This document shows, one piece after another, positions 42,926-62,035 of a stretch of 64,000 bases of DNA; position 1 is the stretch's first letter; each line of letters opens with the position of its first letter. The notes below the pieces were generated by a model, which saw only the letters and a program-made list of their open reading frames with translations, did not search any database and was not told the origin of the DNA. The stretch comes from Allobosea sp. CS1GBMeth4 (GTDB taxonomy: Bacteria; Pseudomonadota; Alphaproteobacteria; Rhizobiales; Beijerinckiaceae), in assembly GCF_900185715.1 (NCBI RefSeq), contig NZ_FYAS01000030.1, forward strand, positions 124,001 through 188,000, in the 5' to 3' direction. The position numbers and the translations under genes were made by a program.

Positions 42926-43002
42926 TGGCGCGCCCGACACGATTCGAACGTGTGACCTTTGCCTTCGGAGGGCAACGCTCTATCCAGCTGAGCTACGGGC
43001 GC
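42926..43002 (-). tRNA. tRNA-Arg (anticodon CCG)
   Basis: A 77-nt cloverleaf including an encoded CCA. Acceptor stem GCGCCCG/CGGGCGC, D-arm AGCTCAGCTGGATAGAGC, anticodon stem TTGCC/GGCAA with loop CTCCGAA giving anticodon CCG, and T-arm GTTCGAATC. It is the attachment gene of the defence island that follows. Confidence 0.97.
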
Positions 43003-43065
43003 TAACCGTGGAGGCTGGATAGCCGATTGGCGGCGCTTCGGCAATGCGGGAATTGCGGGCGGAGC
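42963..43065. repeat. Island boundary direct repeat, left copy (tRNA-Arg 5' half plus upstream flank)
   Basis: 103 bp identical, base for base, to 61933-62035. It begins inside the anticodon arm of tRNA-Arg and extends 63 bp beyond the tRNA 5' end. Same orientation at both ends, so these are attL/attR-like direct repeats. Confidence 0.97.
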
Positions 43066-43077: not shown

Positions 43078-43115
43078 AGGCAAAGGTCACACGTTCGAAT
43101 CGTGTCGGGCGCGCC
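43078..43115 (+). repeat. Inverted copy of the tRNA-Arg 3' half
   Basis: 38 bp identical to 42927-42964 but inverted. It includes the T-arm and 3' acceptor strand (without the final A of CCA) and breaks at the same anticodon-loop position as the direct repeat, overlapping it by two bases (CT). Confidence 0.95.
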
Positions 43116-43129: not shown

Positions 43130-43690
43130 CTATTCGGTGATTGCCGGCTTCGCTCCATCTTCATGGTCGTCTGCGTTCTGCGACCAGGCGAGCAGCTCGA
43201 TGCCCGCCGCGACATAGGCGGCACGAGGATCTGGACGATCCTTTCGCGGGAGACGCTTATCCTCGATCTTTAAGATCCACGCTATTTCAGTGCGCATGAG
43301 GATCGGCACGATCGTCGAGGGAGTTGGGTCTTCCAGCGCCAGCAGCGCCTTCACGGTGTCGCTGACGGGCATAACGTGCTCCCAGTGGAAAACTCCGCGT
43401 TCTGGATCTTTCATAAGACCGCGCTGATCTCGCCACCGAAACCGAGTCAGATCGCCGAGCTCCAGTTCATCAGCGAGCCTCTGGGCTGCACGCGACGCCC
43501 CAGGCACGACGAAGCTTTCAAGACCGCGTGCCATCCAACCCAGCATCATGGCGAGTGTGCTTTGAACGTCAGGCGGAGAAGTCTTATAGCGCCGCAGAAG
43601 GTCGACAATCGCTTCCGCAATAAACGGCGCAGCCCGGGCCAGGTTCGATCCGGATTCCGCATGGGGTAGCGGTTCGCCATCCAAGTCCAT
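43130..43690 (-). CDS. Unknown protein, last gene of the restriction-like operon
   Basis: A 186-residue protein with no confident family. Visible features: a helical N-terminal half (IAEAIVDLLRRYKTSPPDVQ), the line FHWEHVMPVSDTVKALLALE with a conserved-looking His-x-Glu-His, and TEIAWILKIEDKRLPRKDRP with an E-D-x-R pattern. Short proteins with an EHV(M/I)P motif followed by an EED-R segment recur, from memory, near restriction and mobile genes. It starts 15 nt after the helicase stop, so it belongs to the operon. The ATG at 43690 is preferred over the GTG one codon earlier. Confidence 0.75.
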   Translation of the reverse strand: MDLDGEPLPHAESGSNLARAAPFIAEAIVDLLRRYKTSPPDVQSTLAMMLGWMARGLESFVVPGASRAAQRLADELELGDLTRFRWRDQRGLMKDPERGVFHWEHVMPVSDTVKALLALEDPTPSTIVPILMRTEIAWILKIEDKRLPRKDRPDPRAAYVAAGIELLAWSQNADDHEDGAKPAITE

Positions 43691-43705
43691 CACGCACTAC
43701 CCTGC

Positions 43706-45799
43706 TCAATTCTCGAGAAAATCGACGAGAAATTCCGAGGCCGGCTCGACGCCAGACACCAGCAAATGATCTCGGGCCCGGGTGCAGGCGACATAGAGCA
43801 GGTGCCGTTCCGTGTTGTAGACCTCTTCGAGATCGGCATCGTCGGCCACGCTCTCGATGCGTTCCTGCAACGGGATGATCTCGTCGTCGCATGCCATCAC
43901 GACGACGGATCTGAATTCCAGCCCCTTGGCGAAGTGCATCGTGGTGACAGCGACTGCACCGTCTTCGACTTCGACCTTGTCGTTCAGTTCTATGAACGGC
44001 GTGCCCAGCAGTTTGACCGCTGCCCTCGCTCGCTTCAATTCGGCATCCGATCGGACGAAGACGCCGATCTCGTGGGCCTTGCAGCCTTCGGCAAGGCGTT
44101 TCGAGATCCAGGCCGAAACGACCCCGGCCTCATCGTCCGGGCCTCGGGAGATCACGACGTCGGGTGGCGGACCGTCGAACATCGATACGGTGCCCCGGCG
44201 ACCCTCCGTATTGCCGTCCACGTCCGAAATCATGCCCGGCAGGAGCCTGTCGGCCTGCGAGCGGATCTGATGCGAGGTGCGGTAGTTGATACGCAGCGTG
44301 AACGAGCGCCCGCGCACGTCGAGACCGAGAGCCTTCCAGGAGAAGGGCTGCTGGAAGATCCGCTGACCCAGATCCCCGGCAAAGAACAGGCCATCCGGCC
44401 GCTCCCCCGTCAGGGCTGCCAGGAAGCGCGCCTCGGCGACACCCAGGTCCTGCGCCTCGTCGACGACCGCATGATCGAACGGACGGGTTTTGCCGTTCGC
44501 CAGGTGCTCCGTGAGCCGGCCGAAGATGTCTGACCAGGTGACGAGCTTGCGCTCGGCCATGGCCGCACGCGCCCGCTCGAAGATGCTCCAGAGCGCCTCG
44601 CGCTGCTTGCCGCCGATCCGGGTCTTACGACCGAGCCGGGAGACGTCGCGATAGGCCTCCCAGCTCTTCAATTGCCATGCGTCGACGACGTCGCTCCATT
44701 CCCCGAACAGGAAATTTGCCGAGAACTTGTATTCCAAGACATCGGCTGCCGCCTTGCTGAGGAGGCTCCGGATGAGCGATGCCGAGGCGATCTGTGGCTG
44801 TCCGAACCATTCCGCATAGAGCTCGTAGCCGAGCGCCGTGAGCGCCTTTACGGCGATGCGCGCTCGAAGTGCATCGTCGGACGGCGCCAAGCTCGCCAGT
44901 TTGCCCCGCAACGCGTTCGCGAGCGGCTTCGAGAAAGTGGTCAGAAGCACGCGGCTTTTTGGATTAGCGCGCGCCAGATGGACGGCGCGGTGAAGCGCGA
45001 CGATCGTCTTGCCGGTTCCAGCCGAGCCAGACACACGCGCGGGCCCAGTGAAGGCCCGCTCGACCAGCGCGCTCTGTGCCGGGTGCAGGAACACCGCCCA
45101 TTTGTCCCAGGGGTAATCGAGAGCCTGCCGGAGCTCCTCCACATTGGTCAGAACACGGAAGCGGCGCTGCGCGTCGGGGTGAGCGAATGGATCGGCTTCT
45201 GCCGGCGCCGGGTGCGGCGGCTCCGGGTTCTCGCCGACCGCGAGCTTGAGCAGCGCTTCCTGCGCCTCCTGCGGCAGGTGCCTGATGATGTCGAAGAGCG
45301 TGTCCTCGGTGGCTCGCCGCACGTCGTCGACCCATTCCTCCGGCACACCGAACGCCATCAGCTCGTATTTGCGCAGATTGTCGAACAGGCAGACTGTCCG
45401 CACGGACGGAGTCGCGACTTCGGGCTGCACGCCGGTTTCGGCGAGAGGAGTAATCCGGACCTCTTCGACCCGCTCGCGGATCTCGACCAGCTGCATCGCG
45501 CCGGTCGTCGGATGACGCTCGATCTTGCGCCGCTCAGCCCAGCTGTAGGCGGCGTCGTGGTGGTCCACATAGCAGAGCAGGATCCCACTTTGCGCGCGGT
45601 GCACGATGATGCGGATATCCGCGTTGACGCGCAGCGACCAGAAGTTCGGGTCCTTGGCGCGGTCCAGCTTGTGAAAGGACAGGCCAGGCGCGGCAGGGTT
45701 CATCTGCAGGTCGAAAGCGGTCGTCTTGACCGACTTCTGCTCCTGTGCGGTTAGTCGCCCCAGGCTATCCGTGAACGTGTCGGCGATGCGGAAGTCCAT
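43706..45799 (-). CDS. UvrD/Rep-type helicase with N-terminal RelE/ParE-like domain
   Basis: A 697-residue fusion. Residues 1-92 resemble a RelE/ParE mRNA-interferase fold (LGRLTAQEQKSVKTTAFDLQ, SFHKLDRAKDPNFWSLRVNA, IRIIVHRA). A linker with a conserved FGVPEEWVDDVRRA segment follows, then a superfamily 1 helicase: Walker A VSGSAGTGKTIVALH (about 256-270), Walker B VVDEAQD, and C-terminal TTMHFAKGLEFRSVVVMA and LLYVACTRARDHL. It follows the zinc-ribbon gene by 7 nt in the operon. The fused toxin-like domain may be a DNA- or RNA-sensing module; that is inference. Confidence 0.88.
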   Translation of the reverse strand: MDFRIADTFTDSLGRLTAQEQKSVKTTAFDLQMNPAAPGLSFHKLDRAKDPNFWSLRVNADIRIIVHRAQSGILLCYVDHHDAAYSWAERRKIERHPTTGAMQLVEIRERVEEVRITPLAETGVQPEVATPSVRTVCLFDNLRKYELMAFGVPEEWVDDVRRATEDTLFDIIRHLPQEAQEALLKLAVGENPEPPHPAPAEADPFAHPDAQRRFRVLTNVEELRQALDYPWDKWAVFLHPAQSALVERAFTGPARVSGSAGTGKTIVALHRAVHLARANPKSRVLLTTFSKPLANALRGKLASLAPSDDALRARIAVKALTALGYELYAEWFGQPQIASASLIRSLLSKAAADVLEYKFSANFLFGEWSDVVDAWQLKSWEAYRDVSRLGRKTRIGGKQREALWSIFERARAAMAERKLVTWSDIFGRLTEHLANGKTRPFDHAVVDEAQDLGVAEARFLAALTGERPDGLFFAGDLGQRIFQQPFSWKALGLDVRGRSFTLRINYRTSHQIRSQADRLLPGMISDVDGNTEGRRGTVSMFDGPPPDVVISRGPDDEAGVVSAWISKRLAEGCKAHEIGVFVRSDAELKRARAAVKLLGTPFIELNDKVEVEDGAVAVTTMHFAKGLEFRSVVVMACDDEIIPLQERIESVADDADLEEVYNTERHLLYVACTRARDHLLVSGVEPASEFLVDFLEN

Positions 45800-45806
45800 C
45801 GGCTAA

Positions 45807-46454
45807 TCACCTCAGCCATCTAACCGGGATTATCGTTCTCTCGAGTGTTTCACCATCTGGGAGTGAGACTTGGTCGCCCTTGTAAGCAATGATCGATTTT
45901 TGAGTCAGGAATGGCGATGTTCCTTCATAGCGAAATCGCCCAAGCGGTCGGTCTTCTTCGAGAAAACTAACATCAACGTCTGACTTGTTGTCGAATAGCC
46001 CAACCTTCACGACCACGCACAACATCCACCCGTCGCTGTCGAGCGTTCTCTTAAAAACAATGTTCTCATGGCGAGCGATTCGGAGCAGCCCCTCGGACGT
46101 TTGCTGATCTCGCAGGTCATCGGGGAATATGGCTGTGCCTCGCGTGCCAGTTCGTGATTGACTGTTGTCGGTGCAAGGATGCTTTGGCCAGGGCCATCCT
46201 AGGTCGTCAAAATAAATCCTCGATCCATGGGTGTTTTGATAATAATAAACCCCCTCACCACAGATTGGACAACTTGCATTCGGATTAACAAAGCAGGCAA
46301 CGCTACGAGTTTTTGAAACGTAGTATCCGGCCAATGACAATGCGTTGTTGACGCTGTGCCCGGGCATAGACTGGAATGATCTGGCATAAGCACCAGACCT
46401 TGTCCGGTAGCACCAGCCACAACTGCACCATGGGTAGTGATTATGGCCAGGCAC
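45807..46454 (-). CDS. Zinc-ribbon protein of unknown function, low-GC gene
   Basis: A 215-residue protein with no family I recognise. It opens MPGHNHYPWCSCGWC, followed by ASCPICGEGVYYYQN, so two Cys pairs (CSC..C and CPIC) likely bind zinc; a His-rich start and HPCTDN add possible ligands. The C-terminal half is beta-rich with basic residues (SIIAYKGDQVSLPDG). The gene is visibly AT-richer than its neighbours, a sign of separate origin. It starts with a GTG 4 nt after the methyltransferase stop, so it is part of the operon. Confidence 0.75.
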   Translation of the reverse strand: MPGHNHYPWCSCGWCYRTRSGAYARSFQSMPGHSVNNALSLAGYYVSKTRSVACFVNPNASCPICGEGVYYYQNTHGSRIYFDDLGWPWPKHPCTDNSQSRTGTRGTAIFPDDLRDQQTSEGLLRIARHENIVFKRTLDSDGWMLCVVVKVGLFDNKSDVDVSFLEEDRPLGRFRYEGTSPFLTQKSIIAYKGDQVSLPDGETLERTIIPVRWLR

Positions 46455-46458
46455 GGAG

Positions 46459-49302
46459 CTAATTCACCGCAAACACCTTCATCACCTCATCCCCGAGATG
46501 ATTGATGACCTTTACCGCGATGCGCCCGCTCTTCGGCTTCGGGAAGGGGCGGGAGATGTCGGAGTTCAGGCTCTCCCAGGCTTCCTGGTCGATCTCGGCC
46601 TTCAGCGTCGTCTTGAGCGCCTTGTAGGGGTCGTTCGCGCCGAGAAAATAGGCGTGGCGGACGAAGAAGCTCTCCTCGTTGTAGTCGGTGTCGAGCATCC
46701 AGAGCGCGATACCGTCCGTGCCCTCGGAGATCACCTCGCCGGTCTGAGGCTTGAACACGTCGACGCCGAAGACCTTCACCTGCTTCATGCCGTCGGCTGC
46801 ATCCAGGATCTTGATGTCGGGCTCGCCGAAAATGACGAAGAGGTTGCCGGCGCCGGTCGCCTTGAGATCGCCGCCCATGTGAAGATCGGGGTTCATCCGC
46901 GCCTTCAGCACCGGCACGCGGCCGAGCTTGTCGAACTCGGCGGAATGGGCGTCGTAGTTAAAGGCGCAAGCGATCAGCACATCGAAGCCGGCATCGCCCG
47001 CCTCACGCGCCGCCGCGACGAGATCAGGTCGCGAGACCGTGCCAAATTCCGGACCGATGAAAATGCCGGCGCGCTTCTGCTGCTGGCCCTCGGTGTAAGT
47101 GCCCTCGGCGCAGATGAACTCCCCCGGCCAGCCGGTCAGGCTGGAGAAGGTGATGCGATCCTCCTTGTGCGCCTGCTGGACGCCGGCGATCTTGAGATTC
47201 TCGAGGATCATGTGCGCGAAGTCGTGCACGGTCTCGTCGCGCTCGGCCGCCTTGCGCTTGCCTTCGGCGGCTTCGAGCACGTCGATCAGCTCGTCGTCCC
47301 AATCGACGGCAAGGGTGCGATGCGGTGACAGGCTCTCGACCGTGAAGGGGCCAGCGACGCGCACCTTGCTGTTGTCGGTGTAGGGCCTGTCGTAGAGATA
47401 TTCGAATTCGGCCTTGGCCGCGATCGAGGCATCGATCTCCTTCTGGCGGGCGATGCGAGCTTCCCACCATTGGCGGTGCGCCAGCGTCGCCGCTTCGGGC
47501 CAGCCGGGCGCGGCTTCGCGTGGGATTTCCCACTCCTCCCAGCTCTTGCTGAGTGCCGCGTTGAGGGCTGCGCGCAACGGCGCGAGCGTCGCCTGCCACT
47601 TCTCCCAGATCACGTCGATCTCGGTGTTGCTGGCGATCGCGCCTGAGCTTCCTGAGCGCGCACGATCATAGACAAACCCGTGGCGAATGTCGCCACGGGT
47701 CGGCGTGCTCTTGGGCGATGTGCGAGTGAGATCACCTTCCTTAAGCTGACCTTCAGGGCTGTCAGCGAGCAGGTAGTAAGGGTAGCGGGCGCCCATAAGC
47801 CGCGAACGAGCTAGAGCGATGGCCACACGACTCGTATCCACAGTGATCCAGCGGCGCCCCCAATGCTCGGCCACATAGGCGGTCGTACCGGAGCCGCAGG
47901 TTGGGTCAAGCACTAGATCGCCCGGATCGGTGGCCATCAGAATGCAACGCTTAATAAGTTCTGTGTTTGTCTGAACTACATAGATTGGTTTCGAGGCCCC
48001 TCCGAGCGCATCCCACCAGTTTGACATTTGTTTGATCGATGGCGACGGCGAATACCTGATGAACCGAATGTCCCGGTTGAGCGGAAAAAGCCTATCGGCA
48101 TATGCCAATCGCGTCATACCAGGCGTTTCGCCATCATCGCTAACGACAGTGTGCTTCCAGCACTGGCCGTCGCCTATCGGAAAAACACGGCCGAAAAGCT
48201 TAATATCGTGCGATTGATTACGTCGAAAACCCCCGCTTTTTAGAGGATTCAGCCCAAAAATTCGAGCTCCGGGATAGGTGGCACGAAATAGAGCGATATT
48301 CCGCTCATAATCAACATTGTCTCGTGCGCTGAGCTGAGATACCCGCAGACGCACTCCGCCATCAAGCTCAACAAACGGGAAATCTTCGAATACCTCTTCT
48401 TCCTCCCGAACAAGCCACAGCTTGCGAAACTTGAGACGCTCGCCTTGTCGAGCATACATCAAGATAAAATCGTTTACAGGCTCTAAAGTCCCACTGATCT
48501 GGCTACCTTTTTTCTTTACAAGAATTTCCGAAACATAGTTTTCCTCCCCGAATACCTCATCCATCAACGCCCGCACGCGGTGCACGTTCTCATCGCCGAT
48601 CTGCACGAAGATGCTGCCGCTCTCGTGCAGCAGGTCGCGCGCCACGGTGAGGCGGTCGCGCAGATAGGTGAGATAGGAGTGGATGCCGTCTTTCCAGGTG
48701 TCGCGGAAGGCGCGGACCTGCTCCGGCTCGCGGGTGAGATGGTCCTTGGCGCCGTCCTTCACGTCCCGTGACGTGGTGCTCCACTGGAAATTGCTGTTGA
48801 ACCTGATGCCGTAGGGCGGGTCGAAATAGATGCACTGCACCTTGCCTCGCAGCCCCTCGCGCTCGGCGAGGCTCGCCATCACCGAGAGGCTGTCGCCCGA
48901 GATCATCCGGTTCGACCAGTGCTGGTCGTGCTGGTAGAACTCGGTCGCGGCCTCCTTGTCCTTCAGCCCGTTGAAATCGGCGAAGAGATCGGGCGCCGAG
49001 GGCTCGGCCTCCTCGCGGCGCGCCTGCGACTCGCGCTTCAGCTCGTCGATGATCGCCTTGGGATGCACCTTCTCCTGGATGTAGAGCGGCGGCGCCTGGA
49101 CGATCAGGTCCGACCAGTCCTGCTCGTCCTTGCCGCGCCAGACCAGTTGCGGATCGAGATCGCGATTGCGGCGCTCATAGGCGAGCTGGACCGGCGCCTT
49201 CTCATCGGCGCGCATCACGCTTTCATATTCGGCCGTCGGGATATTCCGACGCGTCGCACTGTCATGCTTGAGCGCTTCGACCGAGAGTGGGTTCTTGGCC
49301 AT
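46459..49302 (-). CDS. Type III-like DNA methyltransferase (Mod, beta class)
   Basis: A 947-residue N6-adenine or N4-cytosine methyltransferase. The catalytic motif IV DPPYG is at 161-165 and the AdoMet motif, in DPTCGSGTTAYVAEHWGRR, is at about 466-484; catalytic motif before AdoMet motif is the beta class, as in type III Mod. The long C-terminal half (about 590-947) is unlike classical Mod and may carry target recognition. The start ATG overlaps the small upstream gene by 1 nt. With the Res-like gene at 49715 it forms a restriction-modification core. Confidence 0.93.
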   Translation of the reverse strand: MAKNPLSVEALKHDSATRRNIPTAEYESVMRADEKAPVQLAYERRNRDLDPQLVWRGKDEQDWSDLIVQAPPLYIQEKVHPKAIIDELKRESQARREEAEPSAPDLFADFNGLKDKEAATEFYQHDQHWSNRMISGDSLSVMASLAEREGLRGKVQCIYFDPPYGIRFNSNFQWSTTSRDVKDGAKDHLTREPEQVRAFRDTWKDGIHSYLTYLRDRLTVARDLLHESGSIFVQIGDENVHRVRALMDEVFGEENYVSEILVKKKGSQISGTLEPVNDFILMYARQGERLKFRKLWLVREEEEVFEDFPFVELDGGVRLRVSQLSARDNVDYERNIALFRATYPGARIFGLNPLKSGGFRRNQSHDIKLFGRVFPIGDGQCWKHTVVSDDGETPGMTRLAYADRLFPLNRDIRFIRYSPSPSIKQMSNWWDALGGASKPIYVVQTNTELIKRCILMATDPGDLVLDPTCGSGTTAYVAEHWGRRWITVDTSRVAIALARSRLMGARYPYYLLADSPEGQLKEGDLTRTSPKSTPTRGDIRHGFVYDRARSGSSGAIASNTEIDVIWEKWQATLAPLRAALNAALSKSWEEWEIPREAAPGWPEAATLAHRQWWEARIARQKEIDASIAAKAEFEYLYDRPYTDNSKVRVAGPFTVESLSPHRTLAVDWDDELIDVLEAAEGKRKAAERDETVHDFAHMILENLKIAGVQQAHKEDRITFSSLTGWPGEFICAEGTYTEGQQQKRAGIFIGPEFGTVSRPDLVAAAREAGDAGFDVLIACAFNYDAHSAEFDKLGRVPVLKARMNPDLHMGGDLKATGAGNLFVIFGEPDIKILDAADGMKQVKVFGVDVFKPQTGEVISEGTDGIALWMLDTDYNEESFFVRHAYFLGANDPYKALKTTLKAEIDQEAWESLNSDISRPFPKPKSGRIAVKVINHLGDEVMKVFAVN

Positions 49303-49718
49303 CAGTTCGGCTGCCCTCTATGCAACGCAATCGTCGAACCGCTGCCATTGACCCGCAAGAACGGCGCGACCAGCGAGTGGCCGCGATCAGTCAGTTCGAA
49401 ATGCTCATTTCGACAGGATACGCAGTCGCTCAGGAGGAGCGCCCGCATCACGGCCCGATCGGGCCAGAGGAAACCGTCTTCCAGGGCGATCCCGCACATC
49501 GGTATCGCCCCTCCCGCCAGCTCCACGTAAGCGCAGAGGTATCCAACAGTTCGCCCATTGCGCCAGTCCGGAGTCTTGCCGTCATTCTCCAGCCACCAAG
49601 CCTCCTCGAGCCCGTGCTTGTTCGGTCCCTGCTTGACGGTCTTGTTGGTCGAGGCCTGCTTGCCGTCGAGCCGACTCGTCCAATTGTCGAGCAATGCCCT
49701 GGCTTCGGCGAAGGTCAT
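49302..49718 (-). CDS. Unknown small protein between res and mod
   Basis: A 138-residue protein, no family recognised. It has a helix-rich N-terminus, WWLENDGKTPDWRNGRTVGY, and a C-terminal half that reads like a winged-helix: MRALLLSDCVSCRNEHFELT followed by DRGHSLVAPFLRV. It overlaps the Res-like gene by 4 nt and the methyltransferase by 1 nt, so it is translated with them and is likely a working part of the system, for example a specificity or regulatory subunit. Confidence 0.8.
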   Translation of the reverse strand: MTFAEARALLDNWTSRLDGKQASTNKTVKQGPNKHGLEEAWWLENDGKTPDWRNGRTVGYLCAYVELAGGAIPMCGIALEDGFLWPDRAVMRALLLSDCVSCRNEHFELTDRGHSLVAPFLRVNGSGSTIALHRGQPN

Positions 49719-52700
49719 GCTAGCTCCAGGGGCAAAAACGTCGCAATCAGCTTGTTGAACTCCGCCTCGATCTCATAGACGGCCGTGAACTCGGCAAAGG
49801 CCCAGCGGCCGAACTTGCCGAGGTTGTTGACGCCCGGCACCCAATAGGCGCGCATGGTGTTGGCTTTCTCCTTGGCGTCCTCGCCTCGGTAACCCTTGAT
49901 CTCGACGATGAGGTTCAGCGGCTCGGCTTGTCCGTCATTGATGCGAACGATGAAGTCCGGCAGGTATTTGCGTGGCGTCGAGCCCATCAGATAGGGCACT
50001 TCCAGCCCGAGGTTCTGGTTCTTGACGTAGGCCAGCACACCGGGGTGCGCCTCGGCGACGCGGCAGAACTCGGCCTCCCAGTCGCTGTCACAGACCACCC
50101 AGTTGACATGGCAGCGGCGTTGGTCGGTCTGCCAGCGCGTCTGCTTCGACGTGGTGAAGTTCACGAAGGCGGTCGAGCCCGTCGGATTATAGGCGTCGAG
50201 GATCGCCTTCACCGGGCGCGTGCCTGCGAGCGTCTCGGTGATCGCGGACTTGATCCGCTCGGCCGCCATGTCGGCGATCTCGCGATAAAGCACCTGTGCC
50301 GGATAGGTGGCGCCCGTGCACTGGAGGCCGCCGCTTGCCAGCCATTGCCGCGTGATGCGCTTCAGCTGACCAAAAAGATGCAGCTTCGGTTCCTCGCCGG
50401 GATCGCGATACTTGTTGTAGAGCAGATGCTTGGTGAGATTGAACAAGATTGTCGAGGAGCGAGTATCCTCGAGATGCGCGACCGTCAGGTCGACGCCCTC
50501 GCCGATGATGCCTTGGTTCTTCGTGACCGAGGGACCGACGAGCTCCGGCGTCAAATGTAGCACATGGTCAGGGCCGAAGGTCGCTTCCAGACGCTCGTCC
50601 GGAAGTTCAACGCGATAGCCTTCGACCCGCGGGAAGACGATCTCCAGCGCGTCGCGATCCGGCTTGACCGCGTGGACGCGCACGGTCTCGCGCGGCTTGG
50701 CAGGAGGGGCAATGACGGGCTTGGCTGCGAAGTCAAAGGGGATGCCGAGCACATCGGCATATTCGACGTTGAACAGGCCTTCGTCGTTCAGCTCATAGGA
50801 CTGGCGACGAAGGCCGCGGCCGACGACCTGCTCACACAGCAGCTGGGTGCCGAAGGCGCGCACACCGAGGATATGCGTGACGGTGTTCGCATCCCAGCCC
50901 TCGGTCAACATCGAGACTGAGACGACGCAGCGGATCTGCTCGCCGAGCCGGCCCTTTTTGCCGACCGTGTTCATCACCTCGCGCAGCAAGGTGGCCTCAT
51001 CGATCTCCCCGCCGGTCAGGATGTCGTTGGCGTCCCTGCCACCGCGCTCGACTATATCGCGCTTGAAGCGCTCGATCTCGTCCGCTGCCATCTCGCGAAA
51101 GTCCTTGTCGAGCGCCTCGCCGGATTCAAGCTGGGCGCTGTCGATTAGGATCGTGTTCGGACGGGCGATGCGGTTACCGTGCTCGTCGTAATTGCGGAAC
51201 AGCTCAAGACGGCCGTTCTGCAACACGCTTGAGCCATCATCATTTTCGCGATGAAAGCCGGAGACGTATTTGTAGATCAGCTCTGAGGTTGAGGTGTTGT
51301 TGCAGACGACAATGAAGACCGGCGGAACGCCAATGCCTTCCTTCGTCCATAGCTCGAACGTCTTCTCGTAGTGGCCGTAGAGGGCATCCAGCGCCGCCAG
51401 CAGCACCTGTGGCAGCGCGTGAGGATCATAGCTTTTGCCGGCAGAGGAACGCCCTTTTTTTGGCAATCCCTTCGGACTCTTCTTGATCTCGTCCCATAGG
51501 TTCCGGAACTTCGGTGTGTCGCCGCCCGGCACATTGTCCGCAACTGGCACGCGCGGCAGCTTGACGATGCCGCATTCGATCGCGTCCATCAGCGAGAAGT
51601 CGCTCATGGTCCAGGGGAAGAGTGTGCCCTCGACGTAGCCCGAGCCACGTAGGAAGAACGGCGTCGCTGAGAGGTCATAGACCAGCGCGAGGCCGAGCTT
51701 GCGCTTCACTGCCTCGAGGCCGGAGATCCACATCCGCGCGGCCTCGTTGTTCTCCTTCGCCTCGTCCTTGTCCTCGCCTTTCAGATCGCCTTCCGTCTCA
51801 CCCGTGGCGTCCTTGATGCGCTCGCGATAGCAATGGTGCGCCTCGTCATTGAGCACGACGATGTTCTTCATGCCCATCAGCTCGGGCATCACCCGCTGAA
51901 GCATCTGCCCCTCGGTCTCGAGGGTCTGCAGCTTCTCACCGCGCCAGCCTTCGAGCGCGGTTTTGGTTCCCTTGGCAATCTCCAGCCGCTCGCGCAGCTT
52001 GAACGCGTGATAGTTGGTAATGACGATCTTGGCGCGATCGATGTCCGCCAGCATGTCAGGCGGAACGATCTCGCGGTGCCGGTAATAGCTTTCGGGATCA
52101 TTCGGGAGCAGGATACGCAGCCTGTCCTTGATCGTGATGCCCGGCGCGACGATCAGGAAGCCGCGCGAGAACTGCTTGCTGTTGGGGTGCCTGACGGCGT
52201 TGACGGTTTGCCAGGCGATCAGCATGGACATCACGGTCGTCTTGCCGGCGCCGGTCGCGAGCTTCAATGCCAGGCGCATGAGCTCCGGATTTGCCTGCTC
52301 GTTGGCGCCCTTGAGGTGCGCCCAGAACTTCGCCGCGCGGGCGCCGAGCTTTGGGGCGACCTCGGTCAGCCAGATCGCCGTCTCGACGGCCTCGACCTGG
52401 CAGAAGAACGGCGTGACGCTCTGAAACTTGTGATGGCGCCAGTGCTGCAGCAGCCGAGCTGTTTCGGGGGTGACGAGCCACTGCTCGGGATTCGGCAGAT
52501 TGCGCCAGACTTCAACGTAGGTGCGGACCTCGTTGATGATAGGCGTCGGGTTGTATTCCTGCTCCTGCGTCGACAGATCGTCGTCGGCGCCGAGAACGAA
52601 TGAGGCCTGCTTGCCGCTCTGCCGGCGCTTCTTCGGTTTTGGAACCGGGGTAATGAGGTCCGAACGACGCCGAGTCTCGATGATGCGGTTCGTCGGCTGG

Positions 52701-52966
52701 CCGTCCGCATCGAGCTCCCAATGCCGCGCCGGGAATGCATAAGGCGAATTGAGGATCGGCCTCTCGAAGAACTGCTCAGTCACCGGCGCCAACCTCGGTC
52801 GTGGGACGATGGCGAACGGCGCCGGCGAGCCGCCGAGACAGCCAGACGCTCTCTGCGACCCCGGATTGTCTTCGATCACCCAGAATGTGGGCTGGCCGCG
52901 CTGCTTGTCTCTGAGCCGATCGCATTGATTCCCCCGGACAGGGAAGGTAAATGGCTCGGTGGCCAC
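49715..52966 (-). CDS. Type III-like restriction endonuclease/helicase (Res)
   Basis: A 1083-residue superfamily 2 helicase-nuclease. Motif I LKLATGAGKTTVMS at about 234-247, a DEAHH box (VVLNDEAHHCYRE), DLSATPFF, and motif VI-like QVVGRGLRRQ are present. The C-terminal domain has a PD...ExK nuclease site: PDFIVRI at about 1003-1009 and VEIKGYRG at about 1021-1028. The start is a GTG. It is the first gene of the operon; an IS3-family element sits 56 bp upstream of it and may have replaced or interrupted its promoter. Confidence 0.93.
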   Translation of the reverse strand: MATEPFTFPVRGNQCDRLRDKQRGQPTFWVIEDNPGSQRASGCLGGSPAPFAIVPRPRLAPVTEQFFERPILNSPYAFPARHWELDADGQPTNRIIETRRRSDLITPVPKPKKRRQSGKQASFVLGADDDLSTQEQEYNPTPIINEVRTYVEVWRNLPNPEQWLVTPETARLLQHWRHHKFQSVTPFFCQVEAVETAIWLTEVAPKLGARAAKFWAHLKGANEQANPELMRLALKLATGAGKTTVMSMLIAWQTVNAVRHPNSKQFSRGFLIVAPGITIKDRLRILLPNDPESYYRHREIVPPDMLADIDRAKIVITNYHAFKLRERLEIAKGTKTALEGWRGEKLQTLETEGQMLQRVMPELMGMKNIVVLNDEAHHCYRERIKDATGETEGDLKGEDKDEAKENNEAARMWISGLEAVKRKLGLALVYDLSATPFFLRGSGYVEGTLFPWTMSDFSLMDAIECGIVKLPRVPVADNVPGGDTPKFRNLWDEIKKSPKGLPKKGRSSAGKSYDPHALPQVLLAALDALYGHYEKTFELWTKEGIGVPPVFIVVCNNTSTSELIYKYVSGFHRENDDGSSVLQNGRLELFRNYDEHGNRIARPNTILIDSAQLESGEALDKDFREMAADEIERFKRDIVERGGRDANDILTGGEIDEATLLREVMNTVGKKGRLGEQIRCVVSVSMLTEGWDANTVTHILGVRAFGTQLLCEQVVGRGLRRQSYELNDEGLFNVEYADVLGIPFDFAAKPVIAPPAKPRETVRVHAVKPDRDALEIVFPRVEGYRVELPDERLEATFGPDHVLHLTPELVGPSVTKNQGIIGEGVDLTVAHLEDTRSSTILFNLTKHLLYNKYRDPGEEPKLHLFGQLKRITRQWLASGGLQCTGATYPAQVLYREIADMAAERIKSAITETLAGTRPVKAILDAYNPTGSTAFVNFTTSKQTRWQTDQRRCHVNWVVCDSDWEAEFCRVAEAHPGVLAYVKNQNLGLEVPYLMGSTPRKYLPDFIVRINDGQAEPLNLIVEIKGYRGEDAKEKANTMRAYWVPGVNNLGKFGRWAFAEFTAVYEIEAEFNKLIATFLPLELA

Positions 52967-53084
52967 TACACAAGCTAGGATTGCATGGCGATGTTTCCGC
53001 CTCGAGAATTTAGCCGGTGGGCTGACCTGAGACCCTGATCCTCCTCCAGATTTGAGTAGAGTCCGTCACTCACGGAGACGGACG

Positions 53085-53351
53085 ATGCGCCCCTCACGAT
53101 TCACGGAAGAGCAGATCATCGGGATGCTGAAGGAGCAGGAGACTGGAGCTGCGACGGCGGATGTCGGCCGCAAGCACGGCATCTCCTCGGCGACCTTCTA
53201 CAAGTTCAAGGCGAAGTATGGCGGGATGGACGTGTCGGATGCGCGCCGGCTGAAGACCCTCAAGGATGAGAACGCCCGCCTCAAGAAGCTGCTGGCTGAA
53301 CAGATGCTCGACAACGCGATCCTGAAGGACGTCGCCGCAAAAAAATGGTGA
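53085..53351 (+). CDS. IS3-family transposase OrfA
   Basis: An 88-residue protein with the HTH_Tnp_1 helix-turn-helix ([33 protein letters not shown]) and the leucine-zipper tail ([20 protein letters not shown]). It ends in the run AAAAAAATGG, where a programmed -1 frameshift can fuse it to OrfB. The start is the ATG at 53085. Confidence 0.93.
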
Positions 53352-54184
53352 CGCCCGATGCGAAGCGGAAGGCGGTGGCTCATGCCTGCACGGTGCATGC
53401 GGTGAGCCAGCGTCGGGCGTGCCTGGCCTTGAAGATCGACCGCTCGACGGTGCGCTACACGAGCACCCGGCCGGACGATGCGCTGTTGCGCGAGGCGATG
53501 AAGGCCGTGGCGGCGGAGCGCCGGCGGTTCGGCTATCGCAGGATCCACATCATGCTGGACCGTCAGGGCATCGTGATGAACCAGAAGACGCTGCGGCGGC
53601 TCTATCGCGAGGAGAAGCTGCAGGTGCGCCGGCGCGGCGGCCGCAAACGGGCATTGGGCACGCGCAGGCCCATGCTCGTGCCGGATCGGGCCAATGTGCG
53701 CTGGAGCCTCGATTTTCTCTCCGACACGATCTCGGATGGTCGCCGCTTCAGGGTGCTCGCCATCGTCGACGATTACACGCGCGAGTGCCTGGCGCTTGTC
53801 GCCGACACCTCGCTCTCGGGTCTGCGCGTGGCTCGCGAGCTGGATGCCATCATCCGCCTGCGCGGCCGGCCGGGGACGATCGTGTCCGACAACGGCACCG
53901 AGTTCACCTCGATGGCGATCCTGCGCTGGTGCCAGGAGACCGGGGTCGAGTGGCACTACATCGCCCCCGGCAAGCCGACGCAGAATGCCTTCGTCGAGAG
54001 CTTCAACGGACGCTTCCGGGACGAGTGCCTCAACGACATGCTGTTCTCGACGCTCGTCGAGGCCCACAGCGCCATCACCGCATGGAAGGAGGACTACAAC
54101 CGCCACAGACCACACTCGGCCCTCGGCAACATCACGCCCGCCGAGTTCGCCCTCAAATCCGCGCTGGAAAAACAGGCCGCCTGA
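53345..54184 (+). CDS. IS3-family transposase OrfB (DDE integrase core)
   Basis: A 279-residue transposase. An HTH_21 segment ([20 protein letters not shown]) precedes the rve core: first Asp in [13 protein letters not shown], second Asp in [11 protein letters not shown] and the Glu in [17 protein letters not shown], with the [11 protein letters not shown] lead. All catalytic residues are present, so it is probably active. It overlaps orfA by 7 nt in another frame. Confidence 0.95.
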
Positions 54185-54401
54185 GGCCAGAAATGAAACT
54201 CAGGACTCTCCCTCAGACCGGAGGAGAAAAGGGTCTCAGGTCACCAGCCGCTCGGAGCCAAGGAGGTTTCCAGGCGCGGCGCTAAGGAAATCCGGCTGGA
54301 TGTGGCGCTGGTGTGCCGATTGCGGCTCAGGCCGCTGAGACAGACCACTGGATGCCTGATCGGCCAAGGAGTTCCGCGGAATCCATACTCGGAATGGTTC
54401 C

Positions 54402-54438: not shown

Positions 54439-57405
54439 CTAGCGTTCGTCGAGGCTCGTTTGCACTGTTGCCGCGAACATCTCACGGAGATCGCTGTCAC
54501 TCACTGGGGGCGCCAGCATCTCCTGCGAGAGCCGTCGCTTGCGAGCAAGTAGGCGGTCGAGAGTCACATCGAATGAGGCGTCACCAAACTCGGGGTGGAC
54601 CGCGATGGGCATGTGAATGGTGACGGACAGTGTCTGACCGATGCGATAGCAGCGGTCATTGCATTGATCTTCTACCGCCGGGTTCCACCAACGGCTCAGA
54701 TGCAGAACGTGATTCGCTGCCGTGATGGTCAAGCCTACACCCGCCGATTTCGGGCCGAGGATGAGGAGGTCGAAGCCCTTCGGCGCCTTCTGAAATCGTT
54801 CGACGATCGCCTGCCGCTTGTCGCCCGGAACCTCGCCATTGATAATGGCTGGAGTGCGAGCGAGACCGAGGAGAGTCGTCGCAGCAGCGGCGAATGCTCC
54901 TTGCACGCTCCTGTCCTCTATAAAGACGAGCGCCTTCTCGCCGGATTGTTCGATGCGGCTCAGTAGAGCGAAGACCTGGCGGGTTCGAGCCGAGCGTTCG
55001 ATCCAGGTCTGGGCCTGCCGCGGATCATAGCCGTCGACGCCTTCCGCTCCGTCCGGATGAAGGGAAATGCCCCGCAGCGCATGAACTGCCTTCAACATGG
55101 CGCGGGGATCACGCCCTGCGGCATGTGCTTCGCGCACAGCAGCGGTGTAGGCCTCCGCCTGCGGTGCTGGCATGTTCACCGGATACGACACGATGCGCTT
55201 CTCCGGCAGGCCTTCGAGGATCTGCTCCTTCATGCGACGCTTCATGACGGCTGGCGCGCCTTCCTGAGGCTCGTCCAGCCGCGACTTTAGGGTCTTGAGA
55301 GCTGCCGCGTCTTCCTCCCCATGTGCCGCAGAGAACGACTTCAGATCCCCTAGGTATCCTGGTGCGACCCGGTCCATCAGGCACCAGAGGTCTTCAATGC
55401 GGTTCTCGATCGGCGTGCCGGTAAGGCCGAGCACGAAGTCCGCGTTCATCGCCTTGGCGGCCTGGGTGTTGATCGTGCCCGGAGATTTGACCTTCTGCAT
55501 TTCGTCGAACACCGCGACCGCGTATCCGACCCGCGCAAAGGCGCGGTGGTTGTCGGCCAGCGTCTCGTAAGTCGTCAGGATCCAGCCTGCATCGCGCAAG
55601 CGATCCACGTCGAGCGCATCCTCCGGTGTCCAGCCAGGCTCTCTACGGCGCTTCAGCCGCGACAGACCAGGGCCGAACGCTTCGATGCATTCGCCCAGCG
55701 CGTCATCAACCAGGTGCTGGCTCGCCTCTGCGGTCCAATTGCGTAGCAGTGCTGTGGGCGCGACCACTAGGATCGGGCCAGACGGGGCGGCGCGCGACGC
55801 TTTCTGGCTGGCGCGAACCCAGGCGAGGAACGCGAGAGCCTGAAATGTCTTGCCCAGCCCCATGTCGTCCGCGAGCAAGACACCTGGCCCCCCCGCGGTC
55901 CAGGACTCCACCAACCAGTCGAAGCCTTCTCGCTGATGCGGCTTGGGCGCGCTACGCAACAAATGCTCCGGCAGGCCCGGCGCGATCGCACAGCGTCGTC
56001 GCGGCCGCGTCATTATGTAATCGACGCCTTCGACGTTGCTCTTGATCTGCAGCACAAGACGCTCTGAAGCGGGCGGCTCACTACTGGGTCCGAGCGCGTC
56101 CGCCTCTGGAAGTGTCGTCCCGCCGCGCAGGCCGGCGATCGCGGCCTCAACCGTGGGCAGAGGTGTCAGCGTGCCATCGATCTCGATTTCTGGCTCGCCC
56201 GCCGCCTTGGCAACGTCAGCCCGTTCGATCAGCGCATCCAGCTTCTCTGGGGTGAAGTCCAGCGTGCGCTCACCGATTTGCAGCCTGAAGCGTTCCGGCA
56301 GCCAGCCACTAGGCTTGCGGACCAGCCAGGGCAGTTTCGGCGGGTCCCAGAGACCGAGGCCGGTCACCCGTTCGGAATACTGTTTCGTCTCGACAAACAG
56401 CAGCGCCGCAGCCATGTCAGCGGCATCTCCGCCTAGCGCAGCAGCCAGCGCCGGCCGCGGGTTTCGAAGGAAAGCCCGGCGCTCCTCGGTTGAGGCGGCT
56501 CGCTGTCTTCGCACGACGTCTAGCGCCGTGCGCAGCTCCGGCGCCACGACGACGAACTGGTTACGCCCGAGCACATGCGACTGGCGCGGTCCGCCACTGG
56601 AGAACTGGCTGAGGAACTGCGCCTGCAGCTCCGGCGGAAGAAGCGCGTCAGCCTGCGTGTCGCGCAGCCTCGCCTCGGCTGAGGCCTCATCCTCGCTGTC
56701 GAAGCGATCGGCTGGCGCGTCGTCCTCTAAGGAGGCCGCCTTTTCACGAGCCATCAAAACCGGCACGAAATCGGGCCCCTCGACGTCCGAGCGCTCGCGG
56801 ACATCCAGTGCGAACGAGCCGGCCTGGAAGATCGTCAGACTGCCGAGCACGGCGTCCGCATGAATATCTTGCCCCGCCGCCTCGCGTAGCGCCTGCTGCA
56901 CAGGCGCCCAGGCGGCAACGCGGGCCGCGGGCTCCGTGCCGAGCGTCGCGTTGTAACCCTCGACCGCTCGGACTAGTGCGAGCAGCTCGCGGCTGAGCCT
57001 GCCCCTTTCGCCTCCCCATGACAGCACCGCACCGAGACGTTCGGGCGCAATGTCCCGGTAGGAGCGGTCGCGCCATTTCAAACGGATACGCCCCTCTGCG
57101 GTCTCTATGCGCCCGTCCAGTGACAAGCTGACCGAAAGCCGGCCGAGAACCGGAAGCGCGAGTGTATCGGCGACCGAAGCCGGTGCCGAGGCGACGGAAT
57201 CCTCGGCAAGGAGCAGATCGTCGCCGTCGATTCGGCCTAGGCCGGCCTCGACCTCGGCGAGTGCAAACCGGCCGGCGACGCGAGCGGATCCGGCAAGTCC
57301 GGACCAGCTGGAAGGGGGCACGGCCTTCCGTGAAAGGAGGCGCCGTTCTTCGGCGCGTATGCGCAGCTCGGTGCCTGTAGGGGTGGCAGTGAAGACGATG
57401 GCCAT
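54439..57405 (-). CDS. zorD: Zorya type I protein ZorD (SNF2-family helicase)
   Basis: A 988-residue ATPase. The N-terminal half (1-485) is the Zorya-specific region; the SNF2 core follows with Walker A LADDMGLGKTFQ (about 511-522), Walker B VFDEMQK (632-638), GLTGTPIEN (660-668) and motif VI QCNDRCYRIGQ (914-924). In E. coli Zorya, ZorD is the DNA-translocating nuclease/helicase effector. Length is a little shorter than the roughly 1080 residues of reference ZorD. It is the last gene of the operon, 4 nt after zorC, and borders the internal tRNA-like core. Confidence 0.93.
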   Translation of the reverse strand: MAIVFTATPTGTELRIRAEERRLLSRKAVPPSSWSGLAGSARVAGRFALAEVEAGLGRIDGDDLLLAEDSVASAPASVADTLALPVLGRLSVSLSLDGRIETAEGRIRLKWRDRSYRDIAPERLGAVLSWGGERGRLSRELLALVRAVEGYNATLGTEPAARVAAWAPVQQALREAAGQDIHADAVLGSLTIFQAGSFALDVRERSDVEGPDFVPVLMAREKAASLEDDAPADRFDSEDEASAEARLRDTQADALLPPELQAQFLSQFSSGGPRQSHVLGRNQFVVVAPELRTALDVVRRQRAASTEERRAFLRNPRPALAAALGGDAADMAAALLFVETKQYSERVTGLGLWDPPKLPWLVRKPSGWLPERFRLQIGERTLDFTPEKLDALIERADVAKAAGEPEIEIDGTLTPLPTVEAAIAGLRGGTTLPEADALGPSSEPPASERLVLQIKSNVEGVDYIMTRPRRRCAIAPGLPEHLLRSAPKPHQREGFDWLVESWTAGGPGVLLADDMGLGKTFQALAFLAWVRASQKASRAAPSGPILVVAPTALLRNWTAEASQHLVDDALGECIEAFGPGLSRLKRRREPGWTPEDALDVDRLRDAGWILTTYETLADNHRAFARVGYAVAVFDEMQKVKSPGTINTQAAKAMNADFVLGLTGTPIENRIEDLWCLMDRVAPGYLGDLKSFSAAHGEEDAAALKTLKSRLDEPQEGAPAVMKRRMKEQILEGLPEKRIVSYPVNMPAPQAEAYTAAVREAHAAGRDPRAMLKAVHALRGISLHPDGAEGVDGYDPRQAQTWIERSARTRQVFALLSRIEQSGEKALVFIEDRSVQGAFAAAATTLLGLARTPAIINGEVPGDKRQAIVERFQKAPKGFDLLILGPKSAGVGLTITAANHVLHLSRWWNPAVEDQCNDRCYRIGQTLSVTIHMPIAVHPEFGDASFDVTLDRLLARKRRLSQEMLAPPVSDSDLREMFAATVQTSLDER

Positions 57406-57409
57406 GACT

Positions 57410-58804
57410 TTACCGCACTCGATAGCTCGCTTCAGGGATTCGGAAGCCGGTCATAAAATGGATCCTGTCGGCCACCTTTCGCTGCCAGGCGTAGAGATCG
57501 GAGTTGTGGTGAGTGACTTCGAATATCTCTGCGGTCGGCGCTGCAACCGCATCCGCAGGTGCCTGTAAAGAAGCCGCCTTGTAGGTTTTCGCGTCCATTC
57601 GGGGCGCAGACTGGTGGCCAGAGTCGCTCCAGATGATGCATTTTCCAGTGTGGCTCCATTCGGAAACGATGCCGCGCCCGATACGCAACAGCAGCACCGC
57701 ATGCCCTTGCTGAACTCGGTCCTCGAATGCGGCGAAGGCGACGCCAGTTCCGAGTCGCTGGCGCGCGATCCTCGCCCCATCCTTGTCGAAGACCACCCAT
57801 GCATCGGCGATCAGGTCGTGCTGATACACGGCCTCCCAGAATGCGCGGCGATAGCGCCACATCTGCGCCACTGCGACGCGATCCACGACGTCGAGGAATT
57901 GCCTCAGCGACTGTTCGACCAGCCATCGGCGGACTGTCTGTTCATCGTCCCGCATCCGAGTCCAGCGACCGGGGGTCACACGCGGGTCGCCGAACAGGCT
58001 AAGCAGCAGCCCCAAATAGGCGTCGCGGATTTCCTTCGCTGGCATGCCAACGCCGAAGGGGGCCAGCAATGCCCGCACCGCCAGAGGACCAAGCCCCTCG
58101 TATTGCAGCTTGCCGTCGGGCTTGTGCACGAGCGCCCGCACGAGTGCGAGCCGCGCCATCGGGTCCGGCTCGCGTCCGCCGGCCAGCTCCTCGAGGCAGA
58201 TGCTCATGCAATGCCGAGCATAGCCCCCCGCGGCGAGGCTGGAGAGGCCCGTTTGTGTCAGCAGCGCCGCCGGCGTCAGTCGTTCGGCGATTGCCGCCTG
58301 TGCCACATTCCGAGGCCCGGCTTCGATGTCGAAGAGCCCGAAACGCGCATGCAAGCGATCCCAAGGCGCGCCGATGGTCGCCACGAGGCCGTGAAGCGCC
58401 GCTGCGACCTCCGGCGTGCCGGTGCGTCCAGGCTCGAAGCTGGTCAACCATGACAATGCCAGCGTGCGGGAGGCGGTCTTGCGGCCGCTGCGGCGGACCC
58501 CCTCAATGACAGCGGCCAGCGCAGCCGGCTGCTCCGAGAGAGCCGGAGATGTAGTCCACAGGCACCATGCTCCGTCGCGCGCACGGCGCCAATCCAGTGG
58601 CTCTCCGACAGCAACGGCGGCTGCGATCTCGCGGGCAACCCTGTCGTAGTCTTTGCCTGCCCGCGGCGCTGCCATACCGGCCCCGGCGACGACGCGCGCC
58701 GCCGCCCGCGCTGTGGCCGTCTCCGCTGGCGCACCAGCAATGCTGAGCAGGCGCCGCTTAAGCTCGGTAATCGCGGACCTAAAGGCAGGTGCCGCACCGC
58801 TCAT
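57410..58804 (-). CDS. zorC: Zorya type I protein ZorC (EH-signature domain)
   Basis: A 464-residue protein. The C-terminal part carries the EH signature: the Glu in IVSEWSHTGKCIIWS and the His in FEVTHHNSDLYAWQRKVA. The remaining helical part has no catalytic motif. ZorC acts with ZorD as the DNA-sensing and effector side of type I Zorya. The gene overlaps zorB by 4 nt and precedes zorD by 4 nt, in the fixed zorABCD order. Identification rests on the order plus the EH motif. Confidence 0.9.
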   Translation of the reverse strand: MSGAAPAFRSAITELKRRLLSIAGAPAETATARAAARVVAGAGMAAPRAGKDYDRVAREIAAAVAVGEPLDWRRARDGAWCLWTTSPALSEQPAALAAVIEGVRRSGRKTASRTLALSWLTSFEPGRTGTPEVAAALHGLVATIGAPWDRLHARFGLFDIEAGPRNVAQAAIAERLTPAALLTQTGLSSLAAGGYARHCMSICLEELAGGREPDPMARLALVRALVHKPDGKLQYEGLGPLAVRALLAPFGVGMPAKEIRDAYLGLLLSLFGDPRVTPGRWTRMRDDEQTVRRWLVEQSLRQFLDVVDRVAVAQMWRYRRAFWEAVYQHDLIADAWVVFDKDGARIARQRLGTGVAFAAFEDRVQQGHAVLLLRIGRGIVSEWSHTGKCIIWSDSGHQSAPRMDAKTYKAASLQAPADAVAAPTAEIFEVTHHNSDLYAWQRKVADRIHFMTGFRIPEASYRVR

Positions 58805-59667: not shown

Positions 59668-59673
59668 GGCACA

Positions 59674-61374: not shown

Positions 61375-61932
61375 TCGCCCCCCCGACTGCCAAGATCGTC
61401 CGGCAGCACGAGAAACAGCCTGGCGATTATCGCGCCTTGGGCGTGTCGGGAGCATGCGGAACGCGAGCAGTGACACGTATAAATTGCGCAGGCTAAGACG
61501 AGCCCGCAAGCGCAAAGCGCTCAGCATCGTGGTGGGGATTTGCTTTGCTAGGCGTTGTGGGCGGGCTCATGTGTGATTTCGGCGGAAACGCGGACACCTG
61601 GATCAACAAATGCAAGGAACTCACGACCAGCCTGATGGTCAGCCACCTCGCGAGCTGACACTTCGATCAGGCTAATTCGTTCGAGCCGGGACAGCGTGCC
61701 GTCCGGTCCCACTTCAATCGCGCTCGCGCGATCTCGCGCCCGCTCCTTGCTCGTTTCAGGTGAGCATGCAGCCCGGTCAAGCGGCGTCAGTGGTGATCTT
61801 ATAGACCCGGCGCCGCACAGATGTGGCTAGGTCGTGCCGCATCGGATCGTTGGCGCCACAGGGAGGCATCGATAGCCGTCAATGTCTTGTAAAAGAAGAG
61901 CTTTCTAGCTCGCCGGCCCCAGCGATTCCCAG
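61375..61932. other. Island right end: promoter region of zorA and coding remnant
   Basis: 558 bp between zorA and the right-end repeat. It should hold the zorA promoter, not recognisable by consensus. It contains the remnant at 61548-61826. No integrase gene or integrase fragment can be read in either strand. Confidence 0.65.
61548..61826 (-). pseudogene. Coding-like fragment without a start codon
   Basis: An uninterrupted 92-codon frame on the minus strand between two TAG codons. Its product has coding character in its second half: GTLSRLERISLIEVSAREVA and GREFLAFVDPGVRVSAEIT. There is no ATG and no start with a Shine-Dalgarno. I read it as the 3' remnant of a gene lost at the island end; the family is not recognised. 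Confidence 0.45.
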
Positions 61933-62035
61933 CTTCGGAGGGCAACGCTCTATCCAGCTGAGCTACGGGCGCTAACCGTGGAGGCTGGATAGCCGATTGG
62001 CGGCGCTTCGGCAATGCGGGAATTGCGGGCGGAGC
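61933..62035. repeat. Island boundary direct repeat, right copy
   Basis: Identical to 42963-43065: tRNA-Arg 5' half up to the anticodon loop plus 63 bp of its upstream flank. The tRNA here is only a half copy and lacks the 3' part. Chromosomal backbone continues after 62035. Confidence 0.97.

Follow-up and report, generated by a model that had tools for sequence, protein, structure and literature searches.

Type III restriction-modification (R-M) systems, such as EcoP1I and EcoP15I, depend on two proteins: Mod methylates DNA, and Res translocates and cuts it. The classical gene order is mod followed by res. Cleavage is ATP-dependent and occurs ~25-27 bp from one of two inverted unmethylated sites. 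An operon related to these systems is present in a 64,000-nucleotide stretch of Allobosea sp. CS1GBMeth4 (contig NZ_FYAS01000030.1, positions 124,001 to 188,000; hereafter the window). The operon, at 43130..52966 on the minus strand, contains three core genes (res, mod, and a gene for a RelE-UvrD helicase fusion) and three extra genes (p138, znr, and p187). It seems probable, with considerable reservation, that it encodes a type III-like R-M system in which the RelE-UvrD protein is a fixed third subunit and which carries exchangeable effector cargo.

The Mod protein of the window resembles that of type III systems in the order of its parts: a DPPY motif, an exchangeable recognition region, and an FxGxG-type motif. 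Res likewise combines superfamily 2 (SF2) helicase motifs with a PD-(D/E)XK nuclease. Unlike in type III systems, res precedes mod, there is a third conserved gene, and cargo genes lie between the core genes. Res of the window is also weak against the classical Res model (PADLOC REase_III, 33.8 bits).

The RelE-helicase of the window fits the description of ArmD, the RelE-GajB-like helicase of ARMADA type II, in the accessible part of PMC12458937. In the same part, every single-gene deletion, of all four genes including that for ArmD, abolished protection. ARMADA differs in having ArmA (BrxHII-like), ArmB (PglX-like), and ArmC (YprA-like), as described there. None of these three was found in the island carrying the operon, whose large open reading frames (ORFs) are all assigned otherwise; the 2023 PADLOC models used include none for ARMADA. 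The helicase of the window is 32-37% identical to those of likely ARMADA relatives, an Escherichia coli plasmid (L142, 32%) and a Thermus plasmid (L144). In both, the helicase gene adjoins a large DEAD/DEAH helicase gene (2113 aa in L142), and these two loci are presumably ARMADA. The helicase part is related to GajB of Gabija (PADLOC, 3.4e-25), but in the window a RelE domain is fused to it, and no GajA was found among the assigned ORFs of the island.

Backup effectors embedded in BREX-type loci have been described (PMC12839542), as has PrrC inside a type IC locus (PMC12707154), in the portions of these papers at hand. The same portions indicate a shared layout, in which the operon of a defence core also houses diverse nucleases and abortive effectors, and effector families overlapping with those reported below (HNH, PIN, Schlafen, GmrSD, and OLD/AbiEii-type ATPases). 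Those loci have other cores, whereas here three fixed genes flank two defined slots. Neither PglZ nor DrmA/B was among the best-scoring PADLOC models listed for the six proteins (the best 25 for Mod and the helicase). Membership in BREX, DISARM, ARMADA, or Gabija was rejected because the defining genes were not found. No description of a res-mod-RelE-UvrD set was found in the literature searched, which left bioRxiv, many subscription papers, and supplements uncovered, and the set may still be published. The accessible parts of PMC3710099 and PMC3702460 do not describe it.

The six ORFs are tightly packed. res (49715..52783) and p138 (49302..49718) overlap by 4 nt, and p138 and mod (46459..49302) by 1 nt. 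mod is separated from znr (45807..46454) by 4 nt, and znr from the RelE-UvrD gene (43706..45799) by 7 nt. The gap between the helicase gene and p187 (43130..43693) is 12 nt with a GTG start, or 15 nt with an ATG start one codon on. p187 lies at the island end, outside the core, and has a WEHVMP motif. A previous inspection of this DNA, the sequence-only reading, had proposed the same six minus-strand genes with small overlaps and gaps, and the ORF coordinates agree with it. Its label of a RelE-like N-terminus on the helicase is borne out by the predicted fold, and its zinc-ribbon label for znr fits conserved motifs, both described below. Its start of res at 52966 is to be revised. The ORF is open to 52966, and the start is probably the GTG at 52783 (1022 aa), judging from three comparisons. 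The NCBIfam profile match begins only at residue 67, most intact relatives have a length of about 1010-1030 aa, and the Bosea copy is similar at the DNA level from ~52790 onwards. Codon-usage gene callers were split, the first choosing 52783 and the second 52966.

Res, which is of the BPTD_3080 family and carries its nuclease at the C-terminus, scored 1352.7 bits against NF046055 (cut-off 800). In Pfam, ResIII was above the cut-off and RE_endonuc just under it. Mod scored 1249.9 bits against the PADLOC model MTase_III (PDLC03632) and matched Pfam N6_N4_Mtase. Conservation of motifs was counted in sequences of at least 900 aa for Res, 880 aa for Mod, and 640 aa for the helicase, and residues of Res are numbered from the start at 52966. 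K242, D374-E375, H377, R717, R720, P1003-D1004, E1022, and K1024 of Res are invariant in all 43 sequences, the window included. In Mod, the DPPY motif (D161-Y164) is kept in 53 of 53 sequences, and the FxGxG-type motif lies at D466-T473. The catalytic residues are invariant or nearly so in all three core proteins, and the catalytic motifs are intact in the window copy.

The association of the three genes was examined from both sides. In the forward test, the helicase was scanned over one genome per species, and the best 80 of 549 confirmed stretches together with the window gave 81 loci. mod is found upstream on the same strand in 72 of them, and res as well in 55. Among the nine loci without mod, seven have at most 3.1 kb of upstream DNA. 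There are 17 loci with mod and without res, and in 13 of them the DNA preceding mod is shorter than 1.5 kb. Four loci (L007, L013, L016, and L053) have room for res but lack it, and their mod is shortened or split. The confirmed stretches come from Alpha-, Beta- and other Pseudomonadota, deltaproteobacteria, Acidobacteria, Planctomycetota, Nitrospira, Nitrospinota, Cyanobacteria, Herpetosiphonaceae, Dehalococcoidia, Clostridiales, and Bacillota; many of these labels are those of bins, and some may be misnamed. Within the order, 19 of 327 genomes, including that of the window, have a helicase match with E 1e-100 or better.

In the reverse test, starting from res, 134 of 398 genomes of the phylum showed some match to NF046055, and 26 were over the cut-off. 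Removal of the window's own locus and of five at contig ends (G018, G185, G117, G157, and G189) left 20 loci, two of which (G133 and G305) are probably on contigs already in the forward test. res, mod, and the helicase gene occur in the same order and on the same strand in 15 of the 20, so that these loci show res first and a third gene instead of the two-gene, mod-before-res arrangement of type III. The 15 include L124, whose helicase match falls into two pieces and whose res has an internal stop. Against the helicases from the reverse test, that of the window shows 50-78% identity. A bare three-gene form is present on a Pseudomonas avellanae plasmid, with junctions of a 1-nt gap and a 1-nt overlap. 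The divergence of the core proteins is correlated (r 0.82-0.89 over 41 loci), a pattern which host common descent alone could give. The three-gene restriction core thus recurs in a fixed order across very different bacteria.

The third core gene encodes a RelE-fold domain (residues 1 to about 90) followed by a GajB-like superfamily 1 (UvrD) helicase, with matches to Pfam UvrD_C and UvrD-helicase. Its helicase motifs are fully or almost fully conserved across 80 sequences. For residues 1-120, the predicted fold corresponds to that of RelE-superfamily toxins (Foldseek/VIA-align). R63 and H81 align to R65 and H83 of YoeB (E 0.74), which are catalytic positions. Both residues are invariant in 80 of 80 helicases and are also present in the aligned E. 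coli and Thermus relatives. RNase activity in the RelE superfamily is ribosome-dependent mRNA cleavage, and the RelE domain here may be an active RNase. Alternatively, the RelE-UvrD protein could be an end-processing or safety factor that unwinds or repairs DNA left by Res, in which the RelE domain either lacks RNase activity and serves as a binding module or binds gyrase in the manner of ParE. Such a role would suit the UvrD family, whose members are repair helicases, and RelE RNases and ParE have the same fold. It is unlikely given the invariance of R63 and H81 and the loss of protection in ARMADA without ArmD, as reported in the accessible part of PMC12458937.

Cargo is found at two positions, slot A between res and mod and slot B between mod and the helicase gene. 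The distance from res to mod is at most 31 nt in 12 of 55 loci and at least 294 nt in the remaining 43; that from mod to the helicase gene is at most 16 nt in 14 of 72 loci and at least 228 nt in the remaining 58. By length, therefore, slot A is filled in 43 of 55 loci (41 with a called gene) and slot B in 58 of 72 (50 with a called gene). The called cargo amounts to 144 genes in 91 single-linkage similarity clusters, 64 of which were seen once. Fifteen of the 144 genes are shorter than 100 aa and may be false calls. The first codon-based gene caller missed znr, probably because of the lower G+C content of this gene. The second missed it as well, which leaves znr outside the 144 and makes the cargo counts lower bounds.

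The cargo is co-directional with the core: 143 of 144 genes share its strand. Past the helicase gene, the strand ratio is 52:24 for the first gene, 37:29 for the second, and 30:32 for the third. In the 72 loci with mod, junctions of at most 20 nt were observed in 24 of 37 cases from res to cargo, 28 of 37 from cargo to mod, 25 of 50 from mod to cargo, 21 of 53 between cargo genes, and 36 of 50 from cargo to the helicase gene, which makes 166 of 271 within the operon. From the helicase gene to the next same-strand gene, 5 of 46 junctions are that short, the window included. The short junctions end at the helicase gene; therefore, it is usually the last gene of the operon.

Cargo proteins were compared with Pfam using 82 cluster representatives of at least 100 aa (67 from slot B and 15 from slot A), and with PADLOC using the 67 from slot B. 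For slot B, this covers the best 25 of 54 Pfam families and the best 25 of 400 PADLOC families. The matches listed include AbiEii/SMC ATPases, TIR, SIR2, Fic, PIN, HNH, RhuM, Schlafen AlbA, KAP NTPase, ABC-3C, subtilase, GmrSD, DUF3800, and NYN. Nine of these (AbiEii-type, TIR, SIR2, Fic, PIN, HNH, Schlafen, ABC-3C, and GmrSD) are families of abortive infection or restriction. Each named family has one to four members, the AbiEii-type ATPases being present in 4 of 67. The commonest cluster has 9 called genes and is found in slot A of L047, L063, L066, L071, L077, L078, and L084 and in slot B of L053. Its representative (L047:5489-6988) contains DUF4062, RecG-type HATPase_c_4, and a weak DeoR-like helix-turn-helix match.

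The turnover of cargo was estimated from pairs of loci that have called genes in the respective slot of both. Where the helicases are at least 95% identical, the slot-A cluster is common to 6 of 7 pairs and the slot-B cluster to 3 of 5. At 85-95% identity, these numbers are 4 of 43 and 3 of 34, and at 50-80% identity, 69 of 770 and 14 of 1183. Sharing of slot A at 85-95% is therefore no higher than among distant cores. Both cargo genes are retained in L035/L037 and in L017/L019 (98% helicase identity; Res of L017/L019 99% identical). L008 and L018 (Res 95.6%, helicase 96.6% identical) differ in their slot-A genes, and L024 and L028 (97% for both proteins) differ in their slot-B genes.

Mod shows a similar local replacement. 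In 60-column windows, the 8 close pairs compared are mostly over 90% identical at both ends, whereas the lowest identity, 8-28%, lies between the DPPY and FxGxG-type motifs in each pair; L024/L028 shows a second drop (16%) further on. The recognition region of Mod is thus exchanged between copies. The DNA of the window and of Bosea sp. Root381 (L005) illustrates both kinds of replacement. Identity is 82% in res, 92% in the first 750 bp of mod, and 87% in the block comprising the end of mod, znr, and the helicase gene. The similarity is interrupted at p138, in the Mod recognition region, and past the helicase gene.

Such turnover could also indicate that an ordinary type III R-M operon is a favoured landing place, with the cargo and the helicase functionally unrelated to res and mod. 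Some cargo families live elsewhere, neighbours could travel along when the Mod recognition region is swapped by recombination, and 105 of 271 junctions within the operon are longer than 20 nt. This explanation leaves the presence of the helicase with res and mod in three quarters of the res loci and in distant bacteria unaccounted for. It also conflicts with the close packing of cargo against the helicase gene, compared with the genes past it. We regard it as improbable.

A dedicated defence system of six cooperating genes would explain the tight packing of all six, and znr accompanies the same core in Bosea L005, where it is 92% identical. However, among the 81 loci p138 is found in 4, znr in 2, and p187 in 1. 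Close relatives of the core hold other genes in the same slots; in L005, a 303-aa gene replaces p138, and p187 is not present. Relatives of znr also occur without this core nearby. The six-gene system was rejected on this distribution, and its probability is very low. The sequence-only reading was thus right that there is more than mod and res, since the RelE-UvrD gene accompanies them in many distant bacteria, and right to set the operon apart from BREX, DISARM, and plain type III, given the missing defining genes and the third conserved gene. Its proposal of one six-gene system does not survive the variation of p138, znr, and p187 among relatives of the core. The converse picture, in which only res and mod co-occur and the other four genes vary, holds for p138, znr, and p187 and fails for the helicase. 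Nor are p138 and znr chance neighbours, as they lie in two defined co-directional slots filled by many genes elsewhere.

The cargo of the window, p138 in slot A and znr in slot B, belongs to no named family. p138 is possibly a winged-helix protein; a Foldseek search with it returned nothing significant (best E 0.17). None of p138, znr, and p187 had a PHROGs match with E under 0.2. znr has an N-terminal zinc-ribbon-like domain, predicted from CxC..C and CPxCG motifs that are conserved in its relatives. Its G+C content is 51% (52% at the third position) versus 60-64% in the neighbours. It looks like a real gene despite this low value, to judge from its codons; compared with the Bosea copy, there are 30 synonymous and 17 non-synonymous changes in 216 codons. 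Besides L005, it occupies the same slot in L140 and in Shinella L151, and relatives are also found on plasmids whose annotated flanks lack this core. The search for p187 in 289 genomes of the class, 327 of the order, and 72,556 plasmids gave only its own match. The one relative found is a 191-aa ORF in L192, a locus of the same genus at the same tRNA-Arg site, and matches at 67% over 179 residues. It closes a type I R-M operon there and shares 4 nt with the 3' end of hsdR.

If the operon is a type III-like system with a third subunit, Mod would methylate one asymmetric site, the sequence of which would be set by its middle region, and Res would act as a translocating helicase-nuclease that cuts DNA with unmethylated sites. 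The RelE-UvrD helicase may then act on DNA engaged or cut by Res, and its RelE-fold domain would cut RNA, so that phage expression would be stopped and not phage DNA alone. The slot genes, in this copy p138 and znr, would be on the transcript of the core and may function as backup effectors or guards, fired when the core is blocked or overrun. It is possible, but less than probable, that this represents a widespread defence system, one for which the searches gave no name: an R-M core with an RNase-helicase subunit, which hardly changes while its slots form a cartridge holder for new target recognition (the middle region of Mod) and new effectors, and whose cargo is triggered by the core upon failed restriction. 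What is chiefly in doubt is a functional coupling of cargo and core, as the two may share nothing more than a recombination-prone operon.

Several observations weigh against the type III-like system with a third subunit and effector cargo. L074 and L080 have more than 9 kb upstream of the helicase gene and yet no mod; of the cyanobacterial loci, L075 and L080, neither has mod. The full triad is missing in 5 of the 20 res loci. L118 has res, a mod split into two pieces, and no helicase match. L132 and L133 are divergent (31-32% identity), with mod preceding res and no helicase match. L134 has a short mod match and no helicase match, and L135 has res in two match pieces with neither mod nor the helicase matched. 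A split into at least two called ORFs affects res in 4 of the 81 loci, mod in 7, and the helicase gene in 3, and res of Bosea L005 carries one in-frame stop. An IS3-like insertion sequence (IS) just before res may have hit the promoter, and the window copy may therefore not be expressed; the element may have removed the res promoter or may supply a new one. p138 resembles a DNA-binding protein more than an effector and may be regulatory, and neither p138 nor znr has an enzymatic signature. The sequence match of the RelE domain is weak alone (Pfam HigB-like 0.0055, YoeB 0.74), and its fold is common to ParE, which is a gyrase poison. Of the Walker mutants of the ARMADA helicase, K266A abolished protection and D454N only reduced it, and the mutant data in the accessible part of PMC12458937 contain no test of the RelE domain.

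The comparison has several uses. The RelE-helicase is a module common to ARMADA type II and this system, two DNA-modification systems that are otherwise unlike, and its role is testable by comparing the two. The slots provide a ready catalogue of candidate defence effectors, found by looking between core genes. Near-identical cores with different cargo are natural experiments on the triggering of partner effectors by R-M.

The operon lies in an island bounded by direct repeats at 42963..43065 and 61933..62035, both given on the minus strand and identical at 103 of 103 positions. The copy at 42963..43065 includes the first 40 nt of tRNA-Arg(ccg) (42926-43002). Enclosed by the repeats are 18,867 bp that contain a Zorya operon, the IS3-like element, and the six genes. 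The sequence-only reading mentions neither the island nor the Zorya operon and IS3-like element directly upstream of the six genes. The type I Zorya operon zorA-zorB-zorC-zorD (54439..61527, minus strand; PADLOC ZorA1, ZorB1, ZorC1, and ZorD1) is the upstream neighbour. Zorya proteins are matched no more than about 4 kb from the core, in either orientation, in 5 of 81 loci (L031, L032, L045, L067, and the window). Zorya was rejected as a system member on this count, many of the fetched stretches being cut by contig ends. The IS3-like element is between zorD and res (53028..54240, plus strand; approximate ends) and encodes an rve/HTH_21 transposase. Inverted ends TGAGACCCT were read off the sequence near 53028 and 54238. 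Its own genome contains no near full-length second copy (longest match 553 bases, 71%), and the exact ends thus cannot be set in that way. No integrase gene was found among the large ORFs of the island, apart from the IS transposase; small ORFs were not searched.

At tRNA insertions, the usual duplicated part is the 3' end. The part duplicated at this island is the 5' side of the tRNA and its upstream region. A 38-nt perfect inverted repeat (42927-42964 and 43078-43115) places the 3' part of tRNA-Arg(ccg) in inverted orientation ~75 nt before the tRNA. In 17 same-genus stretches from 16 genomes, similar inverted tRNA fragments adjoin the repeat in 10. Among the matches listed for 18 other genomes of the genus, the repeat core is present in at least two copies per contig, 3-29 kb apart, in 9 genomes and in one copy in the other 9. 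Ten proteins encoded at the same site were scanned: six are of type I or type IIG R-M (L181, L188, and L192), one is ABC-type ATPase-like, and three have no PADLOC match. Other same-site proteins are metabolic or housekeeping, such as hydantoinase, COX1, Hsp90, and a transporter. Downstream of the operon in Bosea L005, there are three variously degenerate tRNA-Arg flanking repeats (12101-12193, 16046-16142, and 17583-17785), which look like several insertions piled up. In another genome of the genus (L187, 292-1793), pieces of RelE-UvrD (83% and 92% identical) lie beside the same tRNA-Arg repeat.

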